This document shows positions 7,631 to 20,275 of a stretch of 23,122 bases of DNA, piece by piece. The notes under the pieces are model-generated. The model was not told the DNA's origin. It made no database searches and was given only the letters and a program-made list of their open reading frames with translations. Both the position numbers and the translations under genes were made by a program. Source of the stretch: a virus. The first letter of the stretch is position 1, and every line of letters starts with the position of its first letter. The stretch is from IMG/VR virus record IMGVR_UViG_3300021378_000173, positions 1-23,122 of that record, one strand, 5' to 3'.

Positions 7631-10600
7631 TTAATTTCCTTTTGGAGTGCTAAGTTCGGCTTGTAGTGTGTCTACTTTAGCGGATAGTTCTTGAATGGCT
7701 TTAGCTAGAAACGGCACCATTTTCGAGTTATCCGTGCCCCAAGGTTTATCTATGGGTTGATTGTTATCTTCATCGCCTACGGTAACCACTTCTGGCAAAA
7801 TTTCATGTAACTCTTGAGCAACAAAACCATAATCGGTGTGGCCACCGTCTTTCCAATCAAATTGCCAGACCTGAATGTTTTTTATTTTTTCTAGAGCGTT
7901 TTCTGGTGAACTAAAATTTTCTTTTGCTCTTTTGTCAGATAGATTGCCATACGTTGTGCCTGAACCGTTAACCCCAATCCACCCCTTTTGTGAACCTTGC
8001 TTCCAAAACCTAAAGATGTCACCATCGTTGTTTCTGCTCAAACTCAAAATAGATGACGGAGTATTTACGGTGCCATAAGACTCAGCATCTTTTCTAAGTA
8101 CCCAACCATAATTGGTGTTACTGGCGCTGTCGCTGGTGGTACCAATTAAAAAATTACCTGCGCCGTTCCATCGGCCGAATTCGGTACCGCCCGAACCAAA
8201 ACTTGTACCAAAACTGTTCCCAGTACCATTAAACTGGATATACCCCATTGGAGTAGTGTCAATAACCTGTTGTATTTTATATGCTGATGTAGTCCAGTCA
8301 TTACCTGTCGAGGTTCTTTCTGATGTAAATTTTAGTTGACTGCTATTGGTAACATCGGTTATTAACCTAAACACATTGATTGAATTGCCCGCCGCTGTAC
8401 CAAGAGAACCACCGCGAATATCAAGTTTGTACGCCGGCGTAGTGTTATTAATACCGACGTTGCCTGAGGAGTCGATGCGCATCTTTTCAGAATCCGCAAC
8501 CAAAAAAGTGTGAACCGATGCGTTTATCTGTAGTGGGTATGTTGCCGTTATTGGGTCGTTGTAACTATCAATGCGGTTAGTACCGCTGATATTACGCAAG
8601 AACAGATTGCTTGTGCCTGCAACGTAAGCGCTGACAAGCGGTGAATAAACTGAACCACTTGCGCCTACCGTTAGCTGACCAGACAGGTTCATACCTCCTA
8701 CAACATCCAACTTTGCATTAGGCGCACTTGTTCCAATCCCGACGTTACTTGAACACTGCAAAACACCTGTCACGATGTTTAACGTCCCGTTGCCCTCAGT
8801 ACCATTCCCACCAGAAAAAAGAAGCCGTGTGTCAAAGTCAGTCGAGGTTGCGCCAGTGTGAACATCTAAAGCAGTGACAGCGGCAACGTTATCTGCGCGA
8901 CCCAGCTCAATCACAAGTGCCCCTGCCTGATCTTGCACATCGTACATAAGTGGGTTGCCAGCAATCGTAGAAGACTGCATCCCAAACGAGCCTCGAGTGA
9001 GCAGTGAACCAGTCAATATGCCGCCAGTTAATGGCAGTTTGGTGCTGTCAGCAACTGTGATGTTCGCAGACCCGTTAAACGAAACGCCGTTGATGGTACG
9101 AGCCGTCTGAAGCGTTGTAGCAGTTGTAGCATTACCAGTGACCGAAATGCCCCATGTACCGGAAGCATCGCCGCCAGTGCGAGTTGGGATATTAAGAGAC
9201 GCTCGCATTCCAGTTGCATTATTCTTTCTAATGTAATCATCACTAGAAGAATAGAACGTCGTATCAGTGGCACGATATACCACGCCATGCGACATATTGA
9301 AATATTGGGCGAACCCATACCGACGGTAGTCATCACCGGTTGCGTTTCGGGCAACAATCTTAGACCCTGTAGCCGCAGTTGTCGCGTCAACCGCCCATGT
9401 GGTGGCAGCAGAACCGTTAAAGTTAGCACCTGTTAAATAAGTTCCACGACTTAAAGTGTTCGGTGTTTGTGCAGAAATACCGATGTTTGCAGACCCGTTA
9501 AACGAAACCCCATTGATAGTACGAGCAGTTTGGAGCGTTGTGGCTGTAGCGGCGTTGCCTGTTGTGGACGAAGATGTAGTGGCGTTGCCGGATAAATTGC
9601 CGACAAATGTGGTAGCGTTGATGTTCCCATTAACCTCAAGCAAGTTAGCTGTCGGCGCTGTGGTGTCTGACTCGCCGTACCCGAGACGCATACCAGAAGC
9701 AACTGTCAAACGGCCATTTGTTGTCAACGCCATAGCGCCTTGGGCGTTTGTATGTGCTGAATCCCCCCACCAAAATCCACGAGTATTGGTATTACTCATC
9801 TGGAAGGACATGGCGTAGTCGTTTAAGCCGCCAAAAGTGTACGAGGTATTCATACCAATCGTGTATTCAGAGCTGTCCCATAACCTAATTTTGTCCCTAG
9901 TGCTAACGGCGGGGCCGTTAAGTAAGGTGTAGGTTAGAGCACCGGACATCGTGCCGCCAGTCAAAGGCAGAACACCGCTTAGTGTAGATGCGGTATGACT
10001 GTGGGAATCGTTTCCAACTGTTGCTGTGAGGGTGGCATTACCTAGGTTGGTAAACGTCGCTGACCCCGTTACGTCTCCAGAAAGCGTTAAAGTTGGATCT
10101 GATGTCGCAGTGGTGGCAATAGAAACGTTACCAGAACCATCAATTGTGGTGGATCCAGTAACCGCGCCGGCCAACGATATGGTTCTAGCTGTTGTCCATT
10201 TGTCAGCATTGCCTGCCCCGGCTTTTACCCAAGAGCCCCAAGTCCCACCTTCTTTTGATCTAAAAGACAGATAATTGTCTGACGTATACCTTGGTATCGC
10301 AAGCTGTAAAGCGTAACTTGCAATTGAGTACTCATTGCCTAGCCCTAATGTAAAGCCATAAAATTGCGGCGAGCCGGTACCGGGGCCATTGGTAGCACCT
10401 TGAACAAACCTGACACCAAAATTTGATATGGAGTTAAAGTCCGTCCATGTGGCATGACCGTCGCCCATATTATTGAACAGGCGATCCTCATCTGTAATTG
10501 TGTCAATACTATGATTGTGGCTATTGTCAACAACAGCGGCGGTTAATGTGACGTTTGCCGACCCGTTAATTGAAACTGATCCTTGAACATCGCCGTTTAA

Positions 10601-11389
10601 TGTTAGCGTTCTAGCTGTCGCCCATTGAGAGGCTGTTGTGGCGTTGCCTGTTGTACTTTGATTACCAGCCGTATTGACCCCGGGTAGGTTGATGTTCGCC
10701 GCGCCGTTAAAGCTAACACCGCCAATGGTACGTGCCGTCGCAAGTGCTGTTGCTGTTGCCGCGTTGCCTGTGATGCTTGCGCTCGCAGTGATATAGCCGC
10801 TAGGGTTGGTGCTGTTGTATGGTGTAAAGCCCAACCCGCTCGTTACTTGCGTCGAAGTGATCGTGCCAGTGTAGGTTGGTAGGTCAGCAGAAGCCAGCGC
10901 AGATCCAGCTGTAGCACGACCTTTTGCGTCCACCGTAATCTTGGCGTACGTGCCAGCGGTGACTCCTGAGTTCGCGAGTGTGGCGACACCAGTCACATTT
11001 GCTGATCCGTTAAAAGATCCGCTTGTGTAGGTCACGTCGCCGGTTAAGGCAATGGTGCGACCCGTCGTCAAGGTTGCAGAAGATCCCGAGGTGCTAATAC
11101 CCCAAGTCCCACTGGGGACAACTACTCCAGCCGAAGTTAAGCGACCCTGAGCATCCACCGAAAACACGGGGATAGAGTTGTTGCCACCGTAGCTACCAGC
11201 GACCACAGCCGTGTTAGCAAGCGCAAACGTACGATTGCCTGAAAGATTGCCGCCACCAGTCAACCCTACCCCAGCGCTGATGCTAACTGACTTCTCTGCC
11301 TTATCTGTGTTGAGGTTAGTGAAGTTGGCATCGACTTCAGCGCTCGTGAGCGCTGTGCCTTTACCTGATCTAGTGGTGATTACAGACAT
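7631..11389 (-). CDS. Long tail fibre with C-terminal S74 intramolecular chaperone domain
   Basis: A 1252-residue host-binding fibre. The N-terminus (MSVITTRSGKGTALTSAEVD) is the usual opening of fibres that attach to the virion. Residues about 40-840 carry many diverged copies of a module with TARTINGVSFNGSANI or TARTISLAG..., interspersed with T/G/N-rich beta segments (GNATTATTLQTA), as in triple-beta fibre shafts. The middle (about 320-400, 510-570) may be globular receptor-binding parts. The C-terminal 102 residues start SDKRAKENF at residue 1151 and include DYGFVAQELHEILPEVV. This is the Peptidase_S74 (endosialidase) chaperone, which folds the trimer and then cuts itself off just before the serine of SDKR. 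A final helix (FLAKAIQELSAKVDTLQAEL) is coiled coil. The ribosome-binding site is GGAG before ATG 11387-11389. Confidence 0.92.
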   Translation of the reverse strand: MSVITTRSGKGTALTSAEVDANFTNLNTDKAEKSVSISAGVGLTGGGNLSGNRTFALANTAVVAGSYGGNNSIPVFSVDAQGRLTSAGVVVPSGTWGISTSGSSATLTTGRTIALTGDVTYTSGSFNGSANVTGVATLANSGVTAGTYAKITVDAKGRATAGSALASADLPTYTGTITSTQVTSGLGFTPYNSTNPSGYITASASITGNAATATALATARTIGGVSFNGAANINLPGVNTAGNQSTTGNATTASQWATARTLTLNGDVQGSVSINGSANVTLTAAVVDNSHNHSIDTITDEDRLFNNMGDGHATWTDFNSISNFGVRFVQGATNGPGTGSPQFYGFTLGLGNEYSIASYALQLAIPRYTSDNYLSFRSKEGGTWGSWVKAGAGNADKWTTARTISLAGAVTGSTTIDGSGNVSIATTATSDPTLTLSGDVTGSATFTNLGNATLTATVGNDSHSHTASTLSGVLPLTGGTMSGALTYTLLNGPAVSTRDKIRLWDSSEYTIGMNTSYTFGGLNDYAMSFQMSNTNTRGFWWGDSAHTNAQGAMALTTNGRLTVASGMRLGYGESDTTAPTANLLEVNGNINATTFVGNLSGNATTSSSTTGNAATATTLQTARTINGVSFNGSANIGISAQTPNTLSRGTYLTGANFNGSAATTWAVDATTAATGSKIVARNATGDDYRRYGFAQYFNMSHGVVYRATDTTFYSSSDDYIRKNNATGMRASLNIPTRTGGDASGTWGISVTGNATTATTLQTARTINGVSFNGSANITVADSTKLPLTGGILTGSLLTRGSFGMQSSTIAGNPLMYDVQDQAGALVIELGRADNVAAVTALDVHTGATSTDFDTRLLFSGGNGTEGNGTLNIVTGVLQCSSNVGIGTSAPNAKLDVVGGMNLSGQLTVGASGSVYSPLVSAYVAGTSNLFLRNISGTNRIDSYNDPITATYPLQINASVHTFLVADSEKMRIDSSGNVGINNTTPAYKLDIRGGSLGTAAGNSINVFRLITDVTNSSQLKFTSERTSTGNDWTTSAYKIQQVIDTTPMGYIQFNGTGNSFGTSFGSGGTEFGRWNGAGNFLIGTTSDSASNTNYGWVLRKDAESYGTVNTPSSILSLSRNNDGDIFRFWKQGSQKGWIGVNGSGTTYGNLSDKRAKENFSSPENALEKIKNIQVWQFDWKDGGHTDYGFVAQELHEILPEVVTVGDEDNNQPIDKPWGTDNSKMVPFLAKAIQELSAKVDTLQAELSTPKGN
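9057..9552 (-). repeat. Near-identical module copies within the S74 fibre gene
   Basis: About 70 bases at 9061-9128 recur at 9484-9551, offset 423 bases (141 codons), with only scattered differences; both encode TARTINGVSFNGSANI. A third, more diverged copy lies near 10683-10755. Such copies allow fibre-domain gain or loss by recombination. Confidence 0.8.
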
Positions 11390-11401
11390 TGACTACTCCA
11401 A

Positions 11402-11839
11402 TCAGCTAACCGTGATTTGCCATGTAATGCTCATGGCGTCGTCTGCGCCCTTGTTAACAACTGCGAACACCGTGCGGCAAAGCATCGTACCGGCAGCAGC
11501 CGCGCTAAACACGCCAGCCTCAGTTACAGCGCCCGTGCCCGTGCCTGGGGGAAATGATGCCACGTAAGTAACCACCACACCCGACGAGCTATCCGAAGAC
11601 AAAGCAACACGACCAAGCTCTTGCCCAAGGGCAGTGTTAGCAGCAGCAGCGGCGATACTGCCAGCGCCGACAGCCATGTGGCTCATCTCACCAGGTGTGC
11701 CTACCATACGGGCAGCGATAAATTGCTTACCGACCGTCACAACGAGGTTTTTAATCTCGCGTTGATCTTTTACTGAACCATCTTTGTTGTATAAAGTAAT
11801 TGCCACATCACCAGTAACTTTAAGTTCGTCTTGAAACAT
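11402..11839 (-). CDS. Virion-associated beta-rich protein (145 residues)
   Basis: The sequence runs MFQDELKVTGDVAITLYNKD, then REIKNLVVTVGKQFIAARMV, then MSHMAVGAGSIAAAAANTAL, and ends FAVVNKGADDAMSITWQITV. The opening strand pair, the NLVV-VGK-FIA helix, the MA-G-G turn with Ala-rich loop and a C-terminal TWQI strand are common in a small protein found beside fibre genes in diverse phages, usually annotated only as a tail or structural protein. It may be a fibre collar or a capsid decoration protein. The ribosome-binding site AGGAG lies seven bases before ATG. It is flanked by the repeat protein upstream and the S74 fibre downstream, which supports a virion role. The exact role is unknown. 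Confidence 0.65.
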   Translation of the reverse strand: MFQDELKVTGDVAITLYNKDGSVKDQREIKNLVVTVGKQFIAARMVGTPGEMSHMAVGAGSIAAAAANTALGQELGRVALSSDSSSGVVVTYVASFPPGTGTGAVTEAGVFSAAAAGTMLCRTVFAVVNKGADDAMSITWQITVS

Positions 11840-11848
11840 TTCTAACTC

Positions 11849-13369
11849 CTAAAAAGATCGGGTAGCCCCGACGTAGTCTTCTGCAAAATACGATAGATCG
11901 CAGTACCCTTGTGACACGAGAGATCCCGTTTCCGTAACCAGTAGGGCGTCTTGTTTCAACAACTCTTGAATTTTCGTCTGTACATCGTTGAAAAACGCAA
12001 CGTTGTTAAAAGTTTTAATTGACTGGAAGGCGAGGCTGTCGCCAACACCCGTACTGTCGTCTACGGCGAAACCATCAGAAAAGTCACGCACATAGATCAA
12101 CAACCGGCCAACAATGTCAGTCATAACCGCACTGTCAGTAGCAAAATGCTTTTCTAACTGCTTGTCGACATCATCTGTTGCGTTTATTGCGTCTCGTGCT
12201 GACTTAGAAACCGTGAGATACGGACGGTCAGCAGACATCACCAGATCACTTAAGTTCTTACTTGTCGTGCGCGCAACGGCTAATCCAAGCGTAAACGCGT
12301 CAACCAGTAACTTTTCGACAGAGAACGTTTGGTTGTCCGCAAAAGCAAAATTATCAGTCAACGACTTATCGAGAACAAACGAGTGTTCTTCAGTCGCCTG
12401 CACAAGGTCGACCAATGCCTTCAGTAGCTCGTATACAGTGTTGTCCTGCGTTCCGAACGAGTGAGCCAAGCTTTTAGCTACTGTCAAGAACTGTTCATCT
12501 TGCGGTACTGAGCTGTCTCTCAACAGCCTGGACAAAGCAAACGCGGATGCATCCGCGAAATCAAAATCGTCACTTAAGGGCTTTTCGAAGACAAACGAAT
12601 GGGCTTCAGTCGCCTGCACAAGGTCGACCAGTGGCTTCAGTAGCTCGTATACGGTATTGTCCTGAGTGCCGAACAAGTTAGCCAAAGCCTTGGCCACAGA
12701 CAGCGCTTGGTCATCTTGAAGTTCTAAGTTGTCATCCAGCTGTTTAACCAAATCAAACGCGGATGCATCCTCAATGTTTTGCACATCCTCGCGTAGCTTG
12801 TTCATCGAGAACGCGTGCTGCTCCGCAGCGAATACAACGTTGGCAATACCCTTAACTACTTGGTAGACCAGTCCGTCTCCCGCGTCAAACGTATCGTTTA
12901 AGGCAAACCCGCTTTGCAGCAACTTGAACAGATGATTTTGGCTTGCGTCTTGGTTGTTAAACGCATCGGCTAGTGGGCGGGCAAACGCAATCGCGTGTAC
13001 ATCCGTAAACCCGTAGTTGTCTTGTATTGCTTTGGCAAACGCGTAGGCGAGCTGTTCCGTCGGGTTAACAGGATCGTTTAGCTCTTTGTTTGTTTGCTTG
13101 GTAACAAAGGTTGCTACTGGAACAGCATCATAAAATGGCTTAGCGAGCGTGAATCTCAAACCGTCCATCATCGTGACCGTTTCAAGCACAATTCGGAAGC
13201 GACCATTCGTGTCTAGTTCTGCACCAACCGACAACTGGACGTAGGCTATCGAAGCCGCGGGGATTAGCGCACTGACACCAGCAACGGGCGTAATAACTGC
13301 TACGCTTGCTCTTAGTTTGACCGTTGCAACACTTGCGGTCGAACTATTACCGGTGGCGCGCACGGCCAT
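11849..13369 (-). CDS. Repeat protein built from about twenty 18-20-residue units
   Basis: A 506-residue protein. The first 60 residues are beta-like (TVKLRASVAVITPVAG). From about residue 70 to 490 the sequence is a chain of units of the form F-x3-K-x-L-x-D-x-F-x3-D, for example FVFEKPLSDDFDFADASA, FLTVAKSLAHSFGTQDNT and VYELLKPLVDLVQATEAHS. Two four-unit blocks are almost the same with a 72-residue period. The C-terminus ends YFAEDYVGATRSF, a closing motif I associate with marine phage structural proteins. There is no enzyme motif and no membrane segment. The position between small virion proteins suggests a long, thin virion part such as a fibre or whisker. The fold (solenoid or helical bundle) cannot be decided from sequence. 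The start has a GAGGA ribosome-binding site six bases before ATG. Confidence 0.7.
   Translation of the reverse strand: MAVRATGNSSTASVATVKLRASVAVITPVAGVSALIPAASIAYVQLSVGAELDTNGRFRIVLETVTMMDGLRFTLAKPFYDAVPVATFVTKQTNKELNDPVNPTEQLAYAFAKAIQDNYGFTDVHAIAFARPLADAFNNQDASQNHLFKLLQSGFALNDTFDAGDGLVYQVVKGIANVVFAAEQHAFSMNKLREDVQNIEDASAFDLVKQLDDNLELQDDQALSVAKALANLFGTQDNTVYELLKPLVDLVQATEAHSFVFEKPLSDDFDFADASAFALSRLLRDSSVPQDEQFLTVAKSLAHSFGTQDNTVYELLKALVDLVQATEEHSFVLDKSLTDNFAFADNQTFSVEKLLVDAFTLGLAVARTTSKNLSDLVMSADRPYLTVSKSARDAINATDDVDKQLEKHFATDSAVMTDIVGRLLIYVRDFSDGFAVDDSTGVGDSLAFQSIKTFNNVAFFNDVQTKIQELLKQDALLVTETGSLVSQGYCDLSYFAEDYVGATRSF
12381..12704 (-). repeat. Near-identical 72-codon tandem duplication in the repeat gene
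   Basis: About 105 bases around 12381-12488 recur at 12597-12704, offset 216 bases, i.e. 72 codons or four 18-residue units. Stretches such as CAGTCGCCTGCACAAGGTCG are identical. The low divergence points to recent tandem duplication inside an older repeat array. Confidence 0.85.
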
Positions 13370-13702
13370 TTAGAAGTCCTCGCGAATCTTGAACTTCAGT
13401 AGGTCGTACACAGTCTGGGTCTGCCCATCAGAGAACGAGATCTCGATCTCCCCTTCGTAGTCGCCAGGTTCTCCTTGAAGCATCTCGGGGGCGCTCGCAG
13501 GGTAAAAAACACATTCACCACTAGCGCCGTTTGTAACGAAGCCGAGTACCGTGGCGGTCAAGTCCAATGCGCCAGCCGCACGAAATTTAAGACGCGGCGT
13601 GGCGCCAGTAATATTGATTGCTACGCCGGTCGTATCATCAGTAATCGTGCAAACCAAGGCTGGTCGAGTGTCGCCTTGTACCAATCGAATTTTTTCGGCC
13701 AT
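13370..13702 (-). CDS. Small beta-sandwich virion protein (110 residues), BppU N-terminal-like
   Basis: The sequence begins MAEKIRLVQGDTRPALVCTI, continues TDDTTGVAINITGATPRLKF, and closes with GDYEGEIEISFSDGQTQTVY and LLKFKIREDF. The pattern 'low-start, polar strand, INITGA, hydrophobic strand, then GDYEGEIEI' is like the N-terminal domain of phage baseplate upper proteins (BppU_N, PF10651), a beta sandwich used to attach fibres to the tail. Here the domain is alone. It is followed one base later by the long repeat protein, which would fit an attachment module for it. The ribosome-binding site is GAGGCG before ATG. Similarity is by pattern only. Confidence 0.55.
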   Translation of the reverse strand: MAEKIRLVQGDTRPALVCTITDDTTGVAINITGATPRLKFRAAGALDLTATVLGFVTNGASGECVFYPASAPEMLQGEPGDYEGEIEISFSDGQTQTVYDLLKFKIREDF

Positions 13703-14350
13703 TTAAATGCGCCTCATTTTGACGTGTCTGGATGCCCGGACGCTACCGTTGTTCGCGCGAGTGCGAGCTAGGTTCAGGCTGGCCTGATAAAGGCCGTTGC
13801 GAGCCACTGCTTGCTTCTCGTTGGAATAGGTCTTGCCCGGGGATAAAAGGATGCGGGTTAAAGCGCCGTGCGCAATAGTCTCGGCGTACTCTTCAAGAAA
13901 GATGTCGTCGAATGTTTGTGCCGCTCTTGTTGGCTTAAGCGCAACCCGCATGGTGATAGCCTGACGCGCTGTCTCTTCCGGAATCGGATAGAACGAGACT
14001 GTGCGTGGGTCTTTTTGAAGATAGAACCTGGGGTCGCCTCGGTTAACAAGGTAGCCTGAGTTTCTGTTGTATACGGAAGGGGTCTTGATTTCGTCCGGCG
14101 TTTCGCCATCCAGCTCCTGGCCCTGGTACCAAACCTTCATGATCTTGGTCACGAGGTGATCGCGGGGTGGCTCTAGGTCGTAGTCCTGGATATTGGCGAT
14201 CGCTGTGATTGGGTCGTGATCCTGCTGCAACACAAGCGACTTCTCTGCGAAATCAATAATTGTGCTGCGGATAGCGAGATCCATCGTTGGTTCTGGGCAC
14301 CCGATTACCTCCGCGGCAATCCAGGGATAAAAGTCTTCTATCGCTGCCAT
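13703..14350 (-). CDS. Head-tail connector / tail adaptor protein (215 residues)
   Basis: The sequence starts MAAIEDFYPWIAAEVIGCPE and continues PTMDLAIRSTIIDFAEKSLV, a helical opening, followed by beta strands (ITAIANIQDYDLEPPRDHLV) and YLQKDPRTVSFYPIPEE. It ends in a basic helix (SVRASRHVKMRRI). This order, of a first helix pair, a central 'DYDLEPP' strand, a 'P-P-E' segment and a C-terminal helix, is that of connector proteins placed after the capsid gene in many phages. It directly follows the DUF6682-like adaptor gene with a three-base gap, and probably forms a second ring at the portal exit to bind the tail. The call rests on position and general pattern. Confidence 0.65.
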   Translation of the reverse strand: MAAIEDFYPWIAAEVIGCPEPTMDLAIRSTIIDFAEKSLVLQQDHDPITAIANIQDYDLEPPRDHLVTKIMKVWYQGQELDGETPDEIKTPSVYNRNSGYLVNRGDPRFYLQKDPRTVSFYPIPEETARQAITMRVALKPTRAAQTFDDIFLEEYAETIAHGALTRILLSPGKTYSNEKQAVARNGLYQASLNLARTRANNGSVRASRHVKMRRI

Positions 14351-14353
14351 TTG

Positions 14354-15043
14354 TTAACCGCCCGCAGCAGCAAGGGCAGCGGCTCGTGGGAGCTGACCGC
14401 CAACGTTTGAAGTATTCGGAGAGACGGACATATTGAGCGATCCACCTACGCCCAGCAAACCACGGAACTGGGTGTAATGCGCCGCAGCACGCTCAAAGTT
14501 TCCGGCGTACTCAGCATCCTTGCTATATGCGCGATAGCATAAGTAGTCGGTTAGGGCGCCCGCATAGACGTCTTCGTTCACAAGTTCTGTTGAAGTATTG
14601 GTGATCTCTACTGGATTACTGGCGTACGCGATCTCTAACTTCTGACCAGACGTCGCCGGAGGATAAACATAAAAGATGCGTGGGCTACGCTCATCAAACA
14701 TAAAATGCCTGATAGCGCCTGGGGTAGATGCATGCCAGTCTGGTAATTGAGCATCTAACACCTCGCGCTCCACAATCCTCACCGCACGAGCGGGGCTGTC
14801 GTCCGCATTAATATTACGCACGGCATCCAGGAATCGATTGCCATCAGCAGGGATACTTTGCTTTGTGCCGGCCACCATTGCGTGAACAGTGTTCGATGCA
14901 TACAAATCAGGACGCATAATACAGACTTCTCGGCGCCCGTCGTTGAGGTAGCGCAACAGCTCCGCCTCCGGCCAACGAACACCCGTCGTATCCTGAATCA
15001 GGTCCTGTGCTCGAGTAATAACGTTTGCGGCTGTCAGCGCCAT
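14354..15043 (-). CDS. Phage head-tail adaptor (DUF6682-like, 229 residues)
   Basis: The N-terminus MALTAANVITRAQDLIQDTT followed by GVRWPEAELLRYLNDGRREV is the signature of the DUF6682 phage adaptor family: a helix, 'LQD-GVRW', then 'ELLRYLNDG-REV'. The middle is beta-rich with a 'FYVYPPATSG' strand, and a helix near the end (YAGNFERAAAHYTQFRGLLG) is followed by an Ala/Gly-rich tail (AALAAAGG). Such proteins bind the portal as an adaptor ring after DNA packaging and guide tail attachment. The gene lies between the small protein at 15052 and the connector at 13703, the expected place. The start has a GAGGT ribosome-binding site. Confidence 0.75.
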   Translation of the reverse strand: MALTAANVITRAQDLIQDTTGVRWPEAELLRYLNDGRREVCIMRPDLYASNTVHAMVAGTKQSIPADGNRFLDAVRNINADDSPARAVRIVEREVLDAQLPDWHASTPGAIRHFMFDERSPRIFYVYPPATSGQKLEIAYASNPVEITNTSTELVNEDVYAGALTDYLCYRAYSKDAEYAGNFERAAAHYTQFRGLLGVGGSLNMSVSPNTSNVGGQLPRAAALAAAGG

Positions 15044-17774: not shown

Positions 17775-18005
17775 TCAGAACTTTCGAACTGTCTCTCGAG
17801 CGTTACTTGATTTTTCGAGCAGCTCAGTTAAAGCCTGTCCGGCTCCTTGATGCCAGCGAGCTTGATGCTCGTCTTTGACATAGAAGCCGTCACGGGCAAT
17901 GGTCTGTACTGAATCCTGTAGCCAGGCCATCACTTCTTGAAAATCGGCATTGCCTTCAAGGGTGGCCAGCGCTTGCAGAACTCTTTTTGTTGGATGGGTC
18001 AGCAC
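17775..18005 (-). CDS. Small helical protein of unknown function (76 residues)
   Basis: Starts at GTG 18003-18005, six bases after the stop of the upstream small gene; no ATG gives a better start. The sequence MLTHPTKRVLQALATLEGNA then DFQEVMAWLQDSVQTIARDG and ARWHQGAGQALTELLEKSS predicts three helices. The 'W-QG-QAL-EL' ending is often seen in small proteins between the portal and scaffold genes of short-tailed phages, whose role is not known to me. It could be a portal- or scaffold-associated assembly factor. A GATCC/GGATC inverted repeat (17764-17776) overlaps its stop. Confidence 0.6.
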   Translation of the reverse strand: MLTHPTKRVLQALATLEGNADFQEVMAWLQDSVQTIARDGFYVKDEHQARWHQGAGQALTELLEKSSNARETVRKF

Positions 18006-18011
18006 TGATAT

Positions 18012-18179
18012 TTACTTGCGCTTACCATAATCCTGCGACGAACGATGACCACACGCTATTCCGCCGTCGGCCATTTTTTTGCCGTGCATCTTAGCCTCGT
18101 GTGTCATCACTTCTTTTTTGGCCACTTGCTTCATGCCTTTCTTGGCCATGCCGCCATCGCCATATTTACCTTTCATCAT
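18012..18179 (-). CDS. Small basic protein with MADGG motif (55 residues)
   Basis: A 55-residue frame from the first of two ATG codons at 18174-18179, starting two bases after the portal stop. It encodes MMKGKYGDGGMAKKGMKQVA, then KKEVMTHEAKMHGKKMADGG and IACGHRSSQDYGKRK. It is very rich in Lys, Met and Gly. Short proteins of this make-up occur after portal genes in many aquatic phages; function unknown. The KKMADGG motif also occurs as MMADGGQV near the end of the portal protein just upstream, which suggests that the two proteins share a binding partner or that one copied the other. A basic peptide of this type could bind DNA or the acidic scaffold. Confidence 0.7.
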   Translation of the reverse strand: MMKGKYGDGGMAKKGMKQVAKKEVMTHEAKMHGKKMADGGIACGHRSSQDYGKRK

Positions 18180-18181
18180 TT

Positions 18182-20275
18182 TTAAAATCCGTCTCTCATA
18201 GCCTTATTGGCCAAAAATTGATTAATCTTCTCGGGCGTCACGCCCTGGTTCATAACCTGCCCACCGTCTGCCATCATCTGCGGCTGCATCGTAGCCACTG
18301 GAGGAGCGGCGCTTGGCTGTGCGGGCTGAGCCTGTTGAGCCTGATCCGCAAACTGCTGGACCATCTGTTGCGCCATCGCTTGCGCCATCTGCTGGATCTG
18401 CATTTGCTGTATTGAGTTGTCGTCTGGGACTATCTTGTTCGTATCCATCTGCAGACCACGCGCTGTTTCACGCAAGATGTACGCACGTCCAGCCGGGCCA
18501 ACAATCTGTGAGTCAATCGGATTAGATGTGGCCATCAAAAATTCATTGCGGCGCATCTGCAGAGCCTCTTTGTGGATAAGGCCGATCGCACCTTTCGCAA
18601 CCACTTGATAATCCCCTTTGATATAGGGATCTGGGTCATACATCATATTGTGCATATATAGTCTCTGCACAATACCAGCTACTATTTTATCTATGTTTGC
18701 TACTGACTGTTTGATGCCTTTTGATGCATTGTCCATCAACATCGACAAGCCCGAGGCAGTGCGACCAGCTCCACCCACGGCACTCGATCCATAAACATAA
18801 TTCGGGATGCCGGTTACCTCGTCAGACTGGCGGGCAAACTGCTGGAACACCGAGAGCAATACATCAGCGTTCATGTTTGGCTGGAAAAACTTCACCGCTG
18901 GAGCGCCGCCACCTGTTCGGTCAGACGTCACCTGCCAGATCTTCCAAGGGTAGATGTCAGTCAGATCCTCTCCATCAGGCAGACGATCGATCGTCACTTC
19001 TACTTGAGGGCCAGATGCCACGCCCATGTTGTTCGCTAAGCTGCGGGCTGCGGCATTACACATAATCTGCGTGTCGCGCATAACCTCTGGCATAGCTACA
19101 CCCCAGAAGCTATGCGGGATCTCTTCCCAGCAGGCCACGTCATAAGGACGGCGCCCAAGTGGGTCTGGGTTGATAATGCATTTCCAGACAAGGCCATCTG
19201 TCCACCATAAATCAACCTCGTACTCTTGGTCTGGCTCAATGGTCTTATCCTGGATACCCCACTCGATCAGCCACTGGCCATTGACTGAACCCCAGAACTC
19301 CAAGGTTTCAATCTGATCTTCATTTAATGGAGTGCGAAATGGCTTACCCTCAAGAGTACGGCGCTCGGTATCTCCGGCCTGAAACGATCGGTAACCACTC
19401 TTGCCGTATCGATCCATGACTGTTTGTAAAGCATCTTGATCTACGCCTGGTGTGCCTTTGAGGGCATAGAGTGACGCACGAGAAAGACGCTGGCGGTGAA
19501 TAAAGTACCCATCATCAACTCCCGTGGAGGAGGGGGAGGGGTAGCAGTCGTAAGGCGACACACGCTCAATCTCGCGAACGAAGTCGGTTGTAATGACTGG
19601 CTGGAAGTCTGGGCCCCAGGTCATCTTCTTGCGCCGCTTGACGATTGGGCCCTTGATAATAGCCGAAGGAAACGTCACGAAGTCAGTAATGAACGCTTTG
19701 AGCGCCATCTCAAACTTGCCTTCATTGAGCTGATCTTCGATCTTATTGCCCATGCGACGGGCTGAGTCAGCCGCCTCTTCTTTAAAGCGATTCAAAATCA
19801 TCTCGTGAACTTCTTCCATGCGGGCACGGAATGTCTCTGGATGGAGCTCACCGCCGTCCTGATCGATGTACTGCATGGCCTCTGTCTTCACTAGGTCGAT
19901 GATCGCCTGCTGCATCTCGGGTGGCATCTGCGGCTCATTTGCCGGTACAAGATCAAAAACACGATCTTGCTGGCCAAACATCACGTCGCGTATCCAGGAC
20001 TCAGCAGCACGGCACTTCACATCGGTGAGCATCATAAAGATATCTGAGCCACCCATCTTGGCGATCTCAGCCGATTTGTCTGGGTCATACACACCACGAC
20101 GCTGACGCTCACAGCGCAGCAAGCGCTCGGCGATTTCCGCTCTCGCTACCTTGGCTTGCTCCCAGCACCGACGCACATACGCCGATAGGTTCGATTCAAA
20201 ACCCGCGTTCTCCTCTAGTGGAGTCGCGTCTGAGACCTCAGATTCAATCAGTGGTTGGTTATTCAGATAGCTCAT
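18182..20275 (-). CDS. Portal protein (697 residues)
   Basis: This is the dodecameric ring at the packaging vertex, through which DNA enters and leaves. The length and content fit the portals of short-tailed phages: N-terminal helices (NLSAYVRRCWEQAKVARAEI), an 'R-RRGVYDPDK' turn, 'DVKCRAAESWIRDVMFG' and the wing-domain stretch FITDFVTFPSAIIKGPIVKR. The core helix-rich region includes SLANNMGVASGPQVEV and the 'GRTASGLSMLMDNASKGIKQ' segment characteristic of portal crowns and stems. The last 90 residues are very Gln/Met/Ala-rich (QQMQIQQMAQAMAQQMVQQF), probably a barrel or disordered tail inside the capsid, and end MMADGGQVMNQGVTPEKINQ. The gene is four bases after the large terminase. Confidence 0.88.
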   Translation of the reverse strand: MSYLNNQPLIESEVSDATPLEENAGFESNLSAYVRRCWEQAKVARAEIAERLLRCERQRRGVYDPDKSAEIAKMGGSDIFMMLTDVKCRAAESWIRDVMFGQQDRVFDLVPANEPQMPPEMQQAIIDLVKTEAMQYIDQDGGELHPETFRARMEEVHEMILNRFKEEAADSARRMGNKIEDQLNEGKFEMALKAFITDFVTFPSAIIKGPIVKRRKKMTWGPDFQPVITTDFVREIERVSPYDCYPSPSSTGVDDGYFIHRQRLSRASLYALKGTPGVDQDALQTVMDRYGKSGYRSFQAGDTERRTLEGKPFRTPLNEDQIETLEFWGSVNGQWLIEWGIQDKTIEPDQEYEVDLWWTDGLVWKCIINPDPLGRRPYDVACWEEIPHSFWGVAMPEVMRDTQIMCNAAARSLANNMGVASGPQVEVTIDRLPDGEDLTDIYPWKIWQVTSDRTGGGAPAVKFFQPNMNADVLLSVFQQFARQSDEVTGIPNYVYGSSAVGGAGRTASGLSMLMDNASKGIKQSVANIDKIVAGIVQRLYMHNMMYDPDPYIKGDYQVVAKGAIGLIHKEALQMRRNEFLMATSNPIDSQIVGPAGRAYILRETARGLQMDTNKIVPDDNSIQQMQIQQMAQAMAQQMVQQFADQAQQAQPAQPSAAPPVATMQPQMMADGGQVMNQGVTPEKINQFLANKAMRDGF

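Follow-up and report, generated by a model that had tools for sequence, protein, structure and literature searches.

Gene organization of the locus

The window analyzed here is an entire IMG/VR virus record (IMGVR_UViG_3300021378_000173; 23,122 bases). It is probably a fragment of a larger genome, because several relatives span 58-63 kb. The structural genes lie on the minus strand, in the order of a terminase-like gene, a portal-like gene, the capsid gene, two SU10-type neck adaptors, a 110-residue protein, a 506-residue repeat protein, a 145-residue protein, a 1252-residue S74 fibre, a DUF7936 protein, and lysis-like genes. The terminase, portal, and lysis labels come from inspection of the sequence. 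In all probability the phage is a podovirus; JC1, of the Bcep22-like group, has podovirus morphology (PMC9144972). The main features are listed in Table 1. The ORF, strand, and coordinates given for the repeat protein in the original prediction were all correct. Near the start of the window there is also a collagen-like Gly-x-x array (110-232; 9-bp unit, 13.7 copies, 90% matches), which sits in a minus-strand ORF (2-1834) for a tail-type protein running off the window start.

Table 1. Features of the neck-to-fibre region, with window coordinates.
Feature	Coordinates	Strand	Basis or remark
Neck adaptor (SU10 type), first	14354..15043	-	43-45% identical to Bcep22-like podovirus proteins
Neck adaptor (SU10 type), second	13703..14350	-	
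110-residue BppU_N-type protein	13370..13702	-	Homologue matches; likely collar/adaptor, putative role
506-residue repeat protein, whole ORF (506 aa + stop)	11849..13369	-	ORF call, self-alignment, position matrix
N-terminal module, residues 1-72	13154..13369	-	Some conservation across relatives (Y42, D52, G55, D68); probable role in virion attachment
Array, 21 units x 18 residues, residues 73-483	11921..13153	-	Self-alignment, position matrix
Four-unit block, copy 1, residues 223-294	12488..12703	-	Self-comparison, Tandem Repeats Finder
Four-unit block, copy 2, residues 295-366	12272..12487	-	Self-comparison, Tandem Repeats Finder
C-terminal cap, residues 484-506, ending QGYCDLSYFAEDYVGATRSF	11852..11920	-	Almost unchanged across relatives and still discernible in other phage types; probably a docking peptide
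145-residue fibre-linker protein, phrog_5417	11402..11839	-	Weakly like GP4 fibre-I gp80 and HFTV1 baseplate-hub domain
1252-residue tail fibre, C-terminal S74 chaperone	7631..11389	-	Likely receptor-binding payload

The two small neighbours of the repeat protein could be related to known families. The 110-residue protein had been called BppU-like, which is borne out by its homologues: 6 of 18 matched BppU_N (Pfam PF10651; best 1.5e-6), whereas the window copy itself gave no score. For the 145-residue protein, the window copy matched GP4 fibre-I gp80 (Pfam PF23140) with E 0.02 and 15.7 bits, below the cut-off of 27; the match to PDB entry 8jou_a had E 0.2. Among its homologues, 20 of 26 matched PF23140 below E 0.1 (best 2.6e-4), and the family profile matched the HFTV1 baseplate hub domain (9h4p) with 5.8e-5. 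In the 2026 paper on phage LSH1, the GP4 protein (8JOU_g) is described as a fibril that connects an adhesin with the nozzle collar; for LSH1 itself, the components proposed are a payload, a fibril resembling that of GP4, and an anchor with an Ig fold (PMC13243795).

The 18-residue repeat unit

Self-alignment of the 506-residue protein gave top-scoring lags of 72, 18, 36, 54, 90, and 108, which exceed all 200 shuffles. With a position matrix built from 40 non-redundant sequences, 21 units were found, with starts spanning residues 73 to 466; shuffled versions of the protein gave a mean of 0.22 units and a maximum of 2. The 18-residue repeat is therefore real, and the original observation holds with minor corrections. 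The unit length had been put at 18-20 residues, with a motif close to the consensus found here; the length is in fact 18, since 17 of the 20 steps are exactly 18 and the others are 24, 39, and 24. The +6 insertion occurs twice in the window array. The consensus is (L/F)-x-(F/V)-x-K-x-L-x-D-x-(V/F)-x-(L/V)-x-D-x-x-x. Across 461 units, the hydrophobic positions 1, 3, 7, 11, and 13 and the charged positions 5, 9, and 15 are kept. Position 5 is K in 72% and R in another 18%; position 9 is D in 75%, and position 15 is D in 81%.

A direct duplication (216 bp x 2.0, positions 12336-12774, 77% matches) was detected by Tandem Repeats Finder. A duplication of 72 residues, or four units, had been predicted and is real. 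However, the word "recent" used for it is too strong, because at the 72-residue offset only about three unit pairs are clearly similar (14, 16, and 9 identical of 18 residues), and in the best duplicated stretch 10 of 30 identical residues differ in their codons.

The array seems to match no described domain. Searches of Pfam and NCBIfam with the window protein and its relatives gave nothing significant for the array, and none above a curated cut-off. This agrees with the original prediction that no named domain has this unit; the sole unit-carrying family was PHROG 12240, of unknown function. Sequence searches of the PDB with the 506-residue protein, an array profile, and the related protein of phage BUCT-ZZ01 found no real match to solved structures. 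A literature search on 18-residue phage repeats found nothing relevant.

Relatives of the repeat protein

The tblastn search of phages with the 506-residue protein and an IMG/VR scan returned essentially no relatives. Relatives were reached through the neighbouring genes for this reason. Using the 145-residue protein, 80 of 262 IMG/VR loci were fetched. In all 80, the ORF directly upstream of the 145-residue gene ends in the C-terminal cap, with the consensus QGYCDxTYFAEDYVGxSRTF and a near-invariant core QxYxxxxYFxxDYVG. Most of these upstream array proteins also share a related N-terminus. An alignment of 28 relatives has invariant columns at Y42 and, in the C-terminal, at Q486, Y488, Y493, F494, D497, Y498, V499, and G500; they are confined to the two ends and lie outside the array. 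The N-terminal module is likely to serve in virion attachment, and the cap is likely to be a docking peptide.

The gene order is also fixed: neck adaptors, 110-residue protein, array, 145-residue fibre-linker, and fibre. A 110-residue homologue lies directly upstream of the array gene in 79 of the 79 loci where one was found. The number of units is variable, from 7 to 21 in complete members of the 145-gene set and from 6 to 28 in loci fetched with the adaptors, where the protein reaches 773 residues; one short relative (L074) has 233 residues. Among relatives whose first and last 60 residues are almost the same, lengths differ by 72 or 73 residues, which is four units, and the gap falls within the array. 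Many such pairs were found, but they come from few lineages and thus represent few independent events. The array proteins form a real and widespread family, unnamed and unannotated, which is common in environmental viruses.

One relative (L090, 3563-4555) has no array gene; there, a divergent linker gene comes immediately after the BppU-type gene. An arm of this kind would therefore be dispensable in some phages.

The unit and the cap in other phage types

The unit was also found joined to other domains. In the T4-like Synechococcus phage BUCT-ZZ01, the 607-residue protein UTS51997, whose gene adjoins gp6, resembles the window protein in having clean units of exactly 18 residues, seven in this case, and a cap, which here reads YFAENY. 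Unlike the window protein, its array is joined to an N-terminal T4-type baseplate-wedge domain (Pfam PF23786 1.9e-7, above the cut-off; phrog_17744 8e-44). BUCT-ZZ01 also has a linker homologue, as the window phage does, but it lies elsewhere in the genome and is non-adjacent.

The virion structural family PHROG 384 occurs in Achromobacter siphophages (SE2, JWX, ART) and in phage Simon, with its gene directly after the tape measure. These proteins share one or two related C-terminal units and a YFAEDYVG-type cap with the window protein, and the next gene encodes a 145-residue homologue, followed by a fibre or collar gene. Their array is very short, however, and their N-terminal two thirds are other domains; those domains (about profile positions 1-300) had no match in the window protein. 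The window protein matched the profile weakly in its C-terminal part (positions 303-391 of 393, E 0.14), and one relative (L086) matched it with 0.0012 (positions 343-388). The 95-kb record of Achromobacter phage ART (MH746817.1) carries two phrog_384-type genes (17814-18878 and 92322-93347), as if two tail modules were present in one record.

PHROG 12240, for example in Shewanella phage vB_SbaS_Y11 (WIF21959), has a looser unit in its N-terminal half. Several relatives of the window protein matched it with 3.4e-5 to 2.3e-15, while the window protein did not. In the relatives, the best-matching stretches stop around position 170-184 of the 387 in the profile; the C-terminal half is another domain, which is absent from the window family. 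The array period in Y11 is about 19-20, compared with 18 here.

The strongest indication that the unit is a virion constituent comes from the fusions to the baseplate-wedge and phrog_384 proteins. These fusions, the conserved ends, the whole-unit length changes, and the fixed place ahead of linker and fibre had gone unnoticed in the original prediction. By these comparisons, the window repeat protein would itself be a virion component.

Repeat proteins in the same genomic slot

The Bcep22/GP4-type podovirus cassette (JC1, GP4; PDB 8JOU) resembles the window in having adaptors, after which come a linker, a repeat protein, another adaptor, and fibres, although the gene order is different. JC1 gp53 is a true gp80 (Pfam 1.7e-43; 8jou_a 1e-57), whereas the window linker is only distantly similar, and JC1 gp55 is a gp77-type fibre-tail adaptor. 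Between them lies JC1 gp54 (L177, 10690-11565), a Gly/Ala-rich protein of 291 residues. It differs from the window array in its 20-22-residue period and its sequence; no 18-residue units and no solved counterpart were found for it, and it may be unrelated to the window array.

In Aeromonas phage phiA008 (UIS74279), self-comparison of the protein occupying the same slot scores highest at lag 18. For the corresponding protein of Achromobacter phage CF418P1, lag 18 ranks second and scores only as high as the top shuffle. No 18-residue units were found in Alishewanella phage Slicko01, which is related to the "extra structural module" of LSH1. In two other loci (L104, 4867-7263; L105, 8150-10546), the array is replaced, after a gp80-like gene, by a protein of 799 residues that repeats cleanly every 20 residues, and its unit reads like L-x-V-T-K-x-L-E-D. 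The slot between neck adaptor and fibre thus appears to tend to hold some repeat protein, with sequences that are unrelated or very distant. A linker-like domain with 34% identity was also seen in a contig of a Thermofilales MAG (L170, JAPWTS010000004.1, 5001-5381), which is possibly an archaeal virus or provirus; no array was found in this contig.

Fold of the array

The lines of evidence on the fold disagree, with alternating conservation on one side and helix-like hydrophobicity on the other. Within the unit, the odd positions 1-15 are conserved, and S, T, A, or G fill most of the even ones (p 0.0016). There is also a six-residue sub-period in conservation (z 2.85; p 0.015, uncorrected for the nine lags), which together with the recurrent +6 insertion fits three strands per turn. 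In contrast, the hydrophobic moment of the window array is greatest at 100 degrees per residue (z 5.5), and at 160-180 degrees it is lower than expected by chance; the moment at 100 degrees is raised in six relatives as well (z 2.0-5.6). This helix-like moment arises in part because the charged K and D occupy the conserved face, and a straight 18/5 helix fits it too. Chou-Fasman averages did not separate helix from strand. The array is rich in A, S, D, T, V, and F and poor in E, Q, and M, and proline is found at unit position 6 in 10% of units.

AlphaFold2 monomers were predicted in two runs, from the full protein with 28 alignment rows and from a six-unit stretch with 49 in-register rows, some of them of four units. 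The pLDDT values were 40.8 and 43.6, with scattered helices; the sole pieces of moderate confidence were helical. A confident single-chain β-solenoid was not obtained in either run, which is weak evidence, given the generally poor quality of both predictions. The six-unit model had no match in a Foldseek search, a result that carries no weight. A new solenoid or fibre architecture had been suggested for the array, with a monomer model as one check on it. The result speaks weakly against a self-standing monomeric solenoid, with an intertwined fibre, a helix, or a tether left as candidates, and falls short of the clean disorder that had been given as grounds for refutation.

The fold tentatively favoured here, although unproven, is an intertwined and probably trimeric β-fibre with three six-residue strands per unit. 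The T4 gp34 and gp12 fibres may serve as a works-like comparison only, being long, thin, intertwined stalks with a hydrophobic interior; their triple β-helix has no clear sequence motif (PMC5537660), whereas the motif of the window array is strict. A bolder form of this proposal, which is doubtful as a whole, is that the array might be a new fibrous fold: an intertwined trimeric β-fibre in which every chain completes a turn in 18 residues (three six-residue strands) and Lys/Asp/Asp form an inward ladder at regular spacing. Short-, long-, and contractile-tailed phages would use it as an exchangeable arm, some 6-28 turns long, to connect an anchor on the virion with the receptor-binding fibre.

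Two other structures were considered. The array might be an intrinsically disordered, flexible tether from anchor to fibre, with units that act as spacers or as motifs of weak stickiness and do not build a rigid stalk. The low pLDDT values (41 and 44), the richness in A, S, D, and T, and the fast change of the array between conserved ends would all agree with it. Yet a length of exactly 18 in most steps, and positions kept across 461 units, are rare in disordered tethers, and the prediction of obligate trimers as monomers is often poor. A disordered tether is considered unlikely. It is quite improbable that the array is an α-helical stalk, a straight coiled coil in which 18 residues, at 3.6 per turn (18/5), would correspond to exactly five helical turns. 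The hydrophobic moments and the helical pieces of the AlphaFold2 models point to such a helix, but the composition (few E, Q, and M; many S, T, V, F, and D), the prolines at position 6, and the i, i+2 alternation of conservation do not, and the common insertions of 2 and 6 residues would disrupt the helical phase.

Proposed function and significance

The repeat units, the conserved ends, the fixed gene order, the whole-unit length changes, and the fusion to a baseplate-wedge protein are consistent with the repeat protein being an extensible arm on the neck or tail of the virion, which bears the receptor-binding fibre (probability roughly 0.55). In this arm, the N-terminal module would attach to the neck, with the BppU_N-type collar protein as the probable intermediary, and the array of 18-residue units would form a long, thin stalk. 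The near-invariant C-terminal peptide might dock the 145-residue linker, which would carry the S74 tail fibre. The number of units would set the reach, and gain or loss of whole units could tune it over evolution. The anchoring domain would vary by phage type, with the array and cap retained.

The mass spectrometry of JC1 virions counts against the arm by analogy, since gp54, the positional counterpart, was not found, while its neighbours gp53 and gp55 were (PMC9144972). A non-virion assembly factor or fibre ruler acting in morphogenesis only would explain this, as well as the variable length and a gene placed just ahead of linker and fibre, but it is very unlikely given the fusion of unit and cap to a baseplate-wedge domain and to a virion structural protein, and the possible unrelatedness of gp54.

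Stalk and arm proteins set the reach of a phage to its receptor, and few of them carry a readable sequence code. The unit described here is strict and countable, and it changes by whole units in close relatives. The arm length may therefore be relatable to host range or to the surface layers crossed. Once solved, the unit could become a building block for protein fibres. Naming the family would cover many hypothetical proteins that always precede the fibre-linker gene.
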